NCBI GenBank assembly: GCA_026708965.1
Contig: JAPOTY010000006.1
Coordinates: forward strand, 62,001-126,000
DNA: 64,000 bases
Direction of reading: 5' to 3'
Source: Gammaproteobacteria bacterium
GTDB taxonomy: Bacteria > Pseudomonadota > Gammaproteobacteria > Steroidobacterales > Foliamicaceae
The translations under genes were made by a program, and so were the position numbers. The notes below the pieces were generated by a model. It was not told where the DNA came from, made no database searches, and saw only the letters and a list, made by a program, of their open reading frames with translations. Below are positions 7,392 to 62,268 of the stretch, one piece after another; the first letter of the stretch is position 1; the number at the start of each line of letters is the position of its first letter.

Positions 7392-8255
7392 GTGCGTTTT
7401 TCCCGTCTCGTTGATGAATTGACCGCCTGCCTAGCCCGCTCACGGGCTCACTTCGAGCACGGCATGCCCGGCCCGGGCGGCGAGGCGCTGGCGCTGGCCA
7501 GTTATGTTTGCGGCGCCGGGAACTGGCAGCGCAGCGGCTTGCTCCAGCGGCGCGTGTCCCGCGCCGAGCGGGCTCGGGCGCTTCGCATGGCGAGGCTGCG
7601 GGTATCGCGGCGGATTCCGCTGGCCTATTTGACGCGCCAAGTCTGGTTCGCCGGAATGCGCTTCGAGGTGGACAAGCGCGTATGCATTCCGCGCTCGCCG
7701 CTGGCGGAATTGATCGAGAGCGGTTTCGCCCCTTGGCTGGATGCTGGCCGGGTGCGGCGCGTCCTGGAGCTTTGCACCGGGTCGGGCTGCATTGCCGCGG
7801 CCTGCGCGTTCGCCTTTCCCGGCAGCGAGGTGGTGGCCACCGATATTTCCCCGGCTGCCTTGCACCTCGCCGAGCGCAATATCCGCCGCCTGGGGCTGGC
7901 GCGCCGAGTCAGCCTGCGACAGGGCGATCTATTCGCCGGCGCCGGAGGCCGTTTCGACTTGGTGGTCGCCAACCCGCCCTATGTGCCCACTGCTGCCTAC
8001 CGCGCCCTGCCGGCGGAATACCGCCACGAACCGCGGCTGGCCCTGGAAGCCGGCAGCGACGGGCTGTCGCTGGGGGAACGCATCCTGCGCGCCGCTCCCG
8101 CTTACCTCGCCGCCGAAGGATTGCTGGCGCTTGAACTGGGAGAAGTCGCCGAAGACTTCGCGGCGCGCCATCCCGAACTGCCGTTCTTCCAGCCCGACCT
8201 GCAACGCGGCGGCCACGGCATCCTCCTCCTAAACGCGCAAGACCTCTGCCCCTAG
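7392..8255 (+). CDS. prmB: Ribosomal protein uL3 N5-glutamine methyltransferase
   Basis: 287 residues from GTG 7392. Class I SAM methyltransferase that methylates a Gln of ribosomal protein L3. The SAM site is LELCTGSGCIAAA, and the catalytic NPPY motif appears as VVANPPYVP. CIPRSPLAELI upstream of the SAM loop matches the 'PRSPIAELI' phrase that separates PrmB from PrmC/HemK. The N-terminal helical substrate-binding domain is present. It is followed directly by the repeat-rich gap at 8256-8658. Confidence 0.92.
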   Translation: MRFSRLVDELTACLARSRAHFEHGMPGPGGEALALASYVCGAGNWQRSGLLQRRVSRAERARALRMARLRVSRRIPLAYLTRQVWFAGMRFEVDKRVCIPRSPLAELIESGFAPWLDAGRVRRVLELCTGSGCIAAACAFAFPGSEVVATDISPAALHLAERNIRRLGLARRVSLRQGDLFAGAGGRFDLVVANPPYVPTAAYRALPAEYRHEPRLALEAGSDGLSLGERILRAAPAYLAAEGLLALELGEVAEDFAARHPELPFFQPDLQRGGHGILLLNAQDLCP

Positions 8256-8335
8256 CCCTTACGCTTCGATCCCGCCCGTTTACGCGATCGCCCTTTTCGG
8301 GGCCGCAAGGAATCAGGGCGCTTCGATTCGCCCAC

Positions 8336-8430
8336 TGCTTGCTTCCTTCTTCCGGGAGACGCATGAATACATCCATGTAGCTTGCTCCGGCATCCCTGCC
8401 TCCGATACTCCCGGAAGAAGGAAGCAAGCA
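8336..8430 (+). repeat. Structured hairpin repeat family A, copy A1
   Basis: Outer arms 8336-8358 and 8408-8430 are perfectly complementary over 23 bp (TGCTTGCTTCC...CGGGAG). The 49-nt core (8359-8407) begins ACGCATGAA. It holds a small hairpin TAC-ATCCAT-GTA (8368-8379) and a second GGC-ATCCCT-GCC (8389-8400). The core is shared with copies A2 and A4, while the arm sequences are not, apart from the innermost GGGAG/CTCCC. It lies between convergent prmB and accD and could also serve as a terminator. Confidence 0.85.
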
Positions 8431-8476
8431 ATGGGCTTGCGGGGTGCATACCCTCTGAGGATTTGCGCCAGCCGGA

Positions 8477-8586
8477 GCCTCTTTGCGCGTTCTCCTCTCG
8501 CGGGAGTGTCGGCGGCAGGGATGCCGCCGCCAAGCCCCATGGATGGGTTCATGCGTCTCCCGCGAGAGGAGAACGCGCAAAGAGGC
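8477..8586 (-). repeat. Structured hairpin repeat family A, copy A2 (inverted)
   Basis: Outer arms 8477-8506 and 8557-8586 pair perfectly over 30 bp. Read on the minus strand, the 50-nt core begins ACGCATGAA. It holds CCC-ATCCAT-GGG (8536-8547) and a 7-bp hairpin CGGCGGC/GCCGCCG around ATCCCT (8510-8529). Relative to A1 the first stem has changed TAC/GTA to CCC/GGG while the loop stayed constant. Orientation is opposite to A1. Confidence 0.85.
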
Positions 8587-8606: not shown

Positions 8607-8636
8607 CTCCCGCGAGAGGAAGGCGCGCAAAGAGGC
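8607..8636 (+). repeat. Solitary arm of repeat family A (A3)
   Basis: Starts CTCCCGCGAGAGGA and ends GCGCAAAGAGGC. It matches the right arm of A2 (8557-8586) at 27 of 30 positions but has no partner arm or core. It is a remnant or half-element 21 bp from A2 and 22 bp before the accD stop codon. Confidence 0.75.
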
Positions 8637-9541: not shown

Positions 9542-9580
9542 GCTAGGACCTGTTGGCCCTATGCGCCAACAGGTCCTAGC
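9542..9580. repeat. 16-bp perfect hairpin between truA and accD
   Basis: Arms 9542-9557 and 9565-9580 (GCTAGGACCTGTTGGC and its complement) pair perfectly around a 7-nt loop. It overlaps the last codons and stop of truA. No T-run follows in the direction of transcription, so it is not a classical intrinsic terminator. It may instead set the truA/accD expression ratio or stabilise the transcript. Confidence 0.7.
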
Positions 9581-62159: not shown

Positions 62160-62268
62160 GCCTGTTGCGCCTGCCCCTATTGCGTGGAGACGCATGAACC
62201 CATCCATGGGGCTCGGCTGGGGCATCCTGCCCCAGACGCTCCACGCAATAGGGGCAGGCGCAACAGGC
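62160..62268 (+). repeat. Structured hairpin repeat family A, copy A4
   Basis: Outer arms 62160-62189 and 62239-62268 pair perfectly over 30 bp (GCCTGTTGCGCC...GTGGAG) and differ from the arms of A1 and A2. The 49-nt core begins ACGCATGAA, with CCC-ATCCAT-GGG (62199-62210) and CTGGGGC-ATCCT-GCCCCAG (62217-62235). The first 24 core bases are identical to copy A2 read on its minus strand. It lies between the divergent DUF192 and moxR genes; the rest of 62083-62380 shows only a candidate -10. Confidence 0.85.

Follow-up and report, generated by a model that had tools for sequence, protein, structure and literature searches.

TwoAYGGAY is a candidate RNA (RF01731; Weinberg et al. 2010, PMC2864571) with gamma-proteobacteria among its reported hosts, and sequestration of CsrA has been proposed as its role (PMC4333381). 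In Rfam, clan CL00106 contains both TwoAYGGAY and CsrB of E. coli. To our knowledge no function has been shown for TwoAYGGAY since 2010, and our literature search found neither a description of it as a dispersed repeat in high copy number nor anything relevant on CsrA with intergenic repeats. CsrA itself is a global regulator; its SELEX consensus is RUACARGGAUGU, with ANGGAN as the preferred loop, presented as a hexaloop (PMC7652899; PMC6028588), and one CsrA dimer is able to bridge sites located 10-63 nt apart, with an optimum above 18 nt (PMC7652899).

The elements described here resemble TwoAYGGAY in having a pair of neighbouring hairpins whose loops are akin to AYGGAY and closed by C-G, an AG in the linker, a CGU-containing 3' segment and a long outer stem that is poorly conserved in sequence. 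Unlike TwoAYGGAY, they have a different core and 3' tail (UUCAUGCGUC or UUUACRGCGU) and a broader range of loops (ANGGAY, CAGGGAUG, CAGGAUG). They also carry in their hairpin loops the A(N)GGA motif by which CsrB, CsrC and RsmX/Y/Z titrate CsrA or RsmA; those, however, are dedicated sRNA genes, few in number and each with many sites, whereas the elements are many dispersed copies with two sites each, held by a long clamp stem and with no conserved promoter or terminator seen. Like the REP/BIME repeats that go with a RAYT, they are high-copy, intergenic, palindromic and sometimes arranged as inverted pairs, but they occur in a genus in which no Y1 transposase was found, their arms are not conserved in sequence and their core is a three-way junction. 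ERIC- and MITE-type repeats, for which read-through transcription occurs in known cases, are likewise hairpins of about 100-130 nt located between genes, but the elements have no fixed terminal inverted repeats, as their arms vary from copy to copy.

Results

The window (the whole 64-kb stretch of DNA analysed) contains three copies of the element. A sequence-only reading had placed them at 8336-8430, 8477-8586 and 62160-62268 and described them as sharing one design, and all three were confirmed by sequence inspection and arm complementarity. Their sequence forms a three-way junction: two hairpins, A and B, and a long outer stem, P1, which measures 27-30 bp in most cases. That reading was made on the less informative strand: its loops ATCCAT and ATCC(C)T are AUGGAU and AGGGAU on the opposite one, the GGA strand. 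The features are as follows.

8330-8358, minus strand: P1 arm of copy 1, 29 nt, the 3' arm on the GGA strand; 97% complementary to 8408-8436
8359-8407, minus strand: core of copy 1, with hairpin A GGCAGGGAUGCC and hairpin B UACAUGGAUGUA on the minus (GGA) strand and the conserved UUCAUGCGUC
8408-8436, minus strand: second P1 arm of copy 1, pairing with 8330-8358
8477-8506, plus strand: 5' P1 arm of copy 2, 30 nt; 100% complementary to 8557-8586
8507-8556, plus strand: core of copy 2, with hairpin A GGCGGCAGGGAUGCCGCC and hairpin B CCCAUGGAUGGG on the plus (GGA) strand
8557-8586, plus strand: 3' P1 arm of copy 2, pairing with 8477-8506
8607-8636, no strand assigned: arm-like piece without a core of its own; it is 90% complementary to arm 8477-8506 of copy 2 and probably the remnant of an element
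62160-62189, minus strand: P1 arm of copy 3, 30 nt; 100% complementary to 62239-62268
62190-62238, minus strand: core of copy 3, with hairpin A CUGGGGCAGGAUGCCCCAG and hairpin B CCCAUGGAUGGG on the minus strand
62239-62268, minus strand: second P1 arm of copy 3, pairing with 62160-62189

The arms had been given as 23, 30 and 30 bp and perfectly complementary. This is right for copies 2 and 3 (30 bp each, no mismatch) but not for copy 1, whose arms pair over 29 bp with one mismatch; the second hairpin of this copy is indeed weak, as had been noted. The arms had also been called unlike between copies, and in fact those of different copies in the genus differ at 44% of (inner) positions, against about 1.5% within a copy, but they are not wholly unlike, since an arm-type consensus, GCCyTT...GGGA, relates them. 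Each copy folds better than its dinucleotide shuffles by 10-15 SD, none of 200 equalling it, with both RNA and DNA parameters. R1, a covariance model that we built from the copies of the genus, scores copy 1 at 103.9 bits and copy 3 at 114.9 bits, both on the minus strand, and copy 2 at 123.2 bits on the plus strand versus 50.8 on the minus strand.

Two further features of the window were observed. A CGCTTCGATTCC-type sequence, located at 8250-8340, is found in front of many arms and reappears in tandem-like pieces, which gives the impression of a longer or decayed unit. At the truA/accD junction (9542-9580) there is a perfect, terminator-like 16-bp inverted repeat with a 7-nt loop.

The pairing is strongly supported across copies. 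Among 143 elements of the genus, 98.7% of the P1 arm pairs are Watson-Crick. In 57 non-redundant copies the covariation score was 0.72, compared to 0.17 after shuffling (0 of 500 shuffles as high), and it fell to 0.12-0.13 when the pairing partner was slid; standard pairs occupied 94.6% of the paired cells, and double changes were found in 659 cells versus 160 in shuffled data. P1, which encloses both hairpins, is paired in 99.4% of cells, hairpin B covaries (CCC/GGG, TCC/GGA, TAC/GTA) and the base of hairpin A alternates between C-G and U-A.

Nearly every loop reads A(N)GGA on the GGA strand. Hairpin B presents A-N-GGA in 142 of the 143 genus copies, with N being T, G, C or A and, in all but one of these 142, a Y following the GGA, while GGA lies in the loop of hairpin A in 123 of the 124 short-core copies of the genus. 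In the genus most loops of hairpin B are AUGGAY, whereas those of hairpin A are mainly ARGGAU or AGGA; only some copies have a strict AYGGAY in each loop. The distance from GGA to GGA is 21-24 nt in nearly all short cores, which falls inside the 10-63 nt bridging range of a CsrA dimer. The core also holds the conserved unpaired UUCAUGCGUC, and P1 is closed on its inner side by GGAG, the palindromic arms themselves lacking conserved sequence; in REPs, GTAG or GGAG stands ahead of a short palindrome that is conserved. About 13% of the copies have long cores (66-73 nt) in which hairpin A is replaced, mostly without a GGA loop. In long-core variants at L072:12719-12845, L045, L039 and other loci a GC-rich hairpin, often GAGCGCCGATGTCCCGGCGCGAA, is inserted and replaces or enlarges hairpin A.

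The mismatches left in the arms are informative about the strand. With repeated contexts removed, the genus copies, which were found by the core pattern, blind to the arms, show 27 G-U against 11 A-C mismatches on the GGA strand (p=0.014). Pattern-found copies of other genera, leaving out genome G343, give 9:2, and both sets pooled give 36:13 (p=0.0014). The top covariance-model matches class-wide give 35:5, a figure that selection by score may inflate; neither this count nor another of 49:4 serves as the main test, because of the score selection and of the many related copies from one genome. As G-U is favoured over A-C on the GGA strand, this is the strand that appears to be selected to fold. 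The suggestion that selection acts on a folded RNA or single-stranded DNA shape is thus upheld by the genome-wide covariation, the orthologous sites (see below) and this strand-specific G-U bias.

The 28-nt core pattern is present at 90 places in the 2.47-Mb genome, versus none in a reversed control, and in 9 of 9 genomes of the genus, those relatives that have a name being uncultured gammaproteobacterial MAGs; in 88 other genomes of the order it was not found with up to three mismatches. R1 finds the family more widely, in 65 of 369 Gammaproteobacteria genomes and 58 of 272 genera, with up to 94 matches per genome in one scan and at least 137 in G343 when more candidates were scored. Across many Gammaproteobacteria, single genomes thus hold from dozens to hundreds of dispersed copies. 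In G343 a short core pattern occurs at 364 places, with few arm types among the copies read, which looks like a recent amplification. Copies of other genera follow the same plan, with GGA in both core halves or hairpins in 80 of 81 unique copies; arm differences between copies amount to 58% in G333 and to only 15% in G178. The composite inverted pair of the window is repeated about four times in the genome. Phage, plasmid and viral collections contained no elements at the patterns tried.

No Rfam family matched the window at the gathering threshold. In a permissive search the minus strand of copy 1 aligned full-length to TwoAYGGAY with both loops in register, at 28.6 bits; the best score in the genus was 40 bits, the gathering score of RF01731 being 43. 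Among nine loci of other genera only one matched TwoAYGGAY, with 38.6 bits, even at a relaxed E value. These scores are no proof of membership, because unrelated microRNA models score about as high, from the arms alone. RF01731 itself was above its cut-off in 15 of the 369 genomes, versus 65 for R1. The sequence-only reading did not recognise the family; the minus strand, however, shows the design of TwoAYGGAY and the CsrB clan, so the elements are not wholly unknown.

The SELEX core ACARGGAUGU is present in 38 of the 81 copies from other genera and the full 12-mer RUACARGGAUGU in 12 of them, and neither occurs on the opposite strand; the motif was not built into the search, because R1 derives from genus copies, which never carry the 12-mer. 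All nine genomes of the genus have one csrA gene, coding for a canonical protein (MLILTRR, VHREEVY). In other genera CsrA was found in 38 of 40 carriers and in 33 of 40 non-carriers, so that the association between carriage and CsrA is not significant (p=0.15), and no CsrA was found in G290, a well-assembled carrier.

Gene orientation, taken from a simple gene finder made for this analysis, places 64 of 150 copies between convergent genes, compared to 18% of gene pairs (p=2e-12), and 12 of 150 in divergent gaps, which are depleted. Of the 74 copies located between codirectional genes, only 31 have the GGA strand in the sense direction (p=0.20), which is a random orientation; a plain sense 3'-UTR role is therefore unsupported, and no sense-strand bias was found. 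The profile of the flanks outside the arms contains no conserved promoter-like sequence and no T run or U tract. A hint of replichore-dependent orientation among the matches listed was gone with the model-search list and sampled GC skew, and no replichore bias was seen in two near-complete genomes.

Orthologous sites were compared in 23 pairs within the genus whose flanks diverge by up to 13%. The arms had accumulated 60 double and 11 single changes, independence predicting 5.6 and 116.5; as the pairs share members, these counts are descriptive only. Matched indels on both arms were present in 8 of the 23 pairs, and arms can be very different where the flanks have diverged by about 6%. In 6 of the 23 pairs, representing four sites, the core was inverted in place between species; all four sites are flanked by convergent genes, so that read-through would transcribe the GGA strand whichever way the core lies. 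Some orthologous sites hold different elements or a replaced core, and others differ by presence and absence (L161 vs L082; L144 vs L155/L151; L164/L116 vs L119). In G001, G003 and G007 the prmB-accD gap of the window measures about 10 bp, whereas in G006 it contains an element and in G008 a related but less regular one. An origin of the arms from an inverted target duplication was rejected, because a consensus is common to the arms of the family and the gap sequence of empty sites does not include them. The same prmB-accD gap in G005 (L146) and G004 (L148) contains a different hairpin (GGGAAGGCGTCTC...), apparently from another repeat family.

Discussion

From their sequence, we consider that the elements probably form a new branch of the TwoAYGGAY kind, present in many copies, and that their RNA would bind one CsrA dimer and either titrate CsrA or load it locally. 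They would combine the TwoAYGGAY architecture with a twin-site, CsrA decoy-like working, and we class them as a new variant and not as members of RF01731 because their scores do not reach the Rfam threshold. The GGA strand would be transcribed by read-through from the neighbouring gene, and P1 would clamp the junction and present two CsrA sites 21-24 nt apart, both of which one dimer could bridge. Each copy would then serve CsrA as a decoy or a landing pad, and all copies together could have a buffering effect on the free protein. Changes that break P1 would be removed or mended, by compensatory selection or by arm-to-arm copying through template switching, and arms that are kept paired would be free to drift in sequence. 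Our confidence in the CsrA reading is moderate because of the random orientation to genes, the carrier G290, in which no CsrA was detected, and the non-significant association; furthermore, the Rfam match stays below the gathering score and the long cores mostly lack the GGA of hairpin A.

The elements could instead be mobile REP- or MITE-like DNA in which a single-strand fold is recognised by a transposase, the GGA loops and the unpaired UGCGU being enzyme contacts with no RNA role. The dispersed copies, the presence or absence at orthologous gaps, the unrelated elements at one orthologous site, the random orientation to genes and the repeated composite inverted pair would all fit such an origin. 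The mismatch bias would also be compatible with a folded single DNA strand, and G-T wobble is the best mismatch in DNA too. However, the check for a REP-type transposase that had been suggested was run, and a Y1/RAYT transposase was found in none of the nine genomes of the genus, control genomes giving a signal. The empty-site comparisons read gave no clean target duplication, the lack of replichore bias in two near-complete genomes argues against lagging-strand insertion in the IS200/IS605 style, and the elements are absent from phage and viral collections at the patterns tried. A transposase would also have no need for both loops to fit a CsrA consensus, and we regard purely mobile DNA as unlikely. 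Bidirectional 3'-end elements, functioning as terminators or as RNase barriers that stabilise upstream mRNAs (a role proposed for REPs), seem less plausible still: the very stable stems, the enrichment between convergent genes and the depletion between divergent ones speak for them, but neither arm is followed by the conserved U tract of an intrinsic terminator, a barrier needs neither invariant GGA loops nor the conserved unpaired UUCAUGCGUC, and a bidirectional function should be symmetric, whereas the G-U bias is one-sided.

Very improbable, in our opinion, is that quasipalindrome correction by template switching, acting on the DNA, is all that makes the arms identical, with no selection on pairing. 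Paired indels, inversion of the core between the arms and strongly different arms at little-diverged sites are compatible with it, but it leaves the G-U excess on one strand and the covariation of hairpins A and B unexplained, and the paired indels could also come from whole-element replacement.

Extending the CsrA reading to the class is more tentative: the elements may be dispersed, spreading units selected for the CsrA-binding RNA that they give rise to, present in tens to hundreds of copies per genome and coupling the level of free CsrA to read-through transcription throughout the genome. If this were true, it would be a repeat family, and not a handful of sRNA genes, that titrates CsrA. 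With its strong covariation, SELEX-grade motifs and near-perfect arms, this high-copy, class-wide branch offers a concrete test of the CsrA-sponge proposal and, should that proposal hold, intergenic repeats would join the Csr/Rsm network.

The elements also offer natural material for studying how the two arms of a long palindrome remain matched, with examples of paired indels and of inversion in place. Partial tandem duplications of the core plus one arm were seen at L031:13619-13800 and L049:4900-5100. L081 and L167, from two species, are identical in one 400-bp flank but not in the other flank or in the element, where a recombination breakpoint possibly lies.
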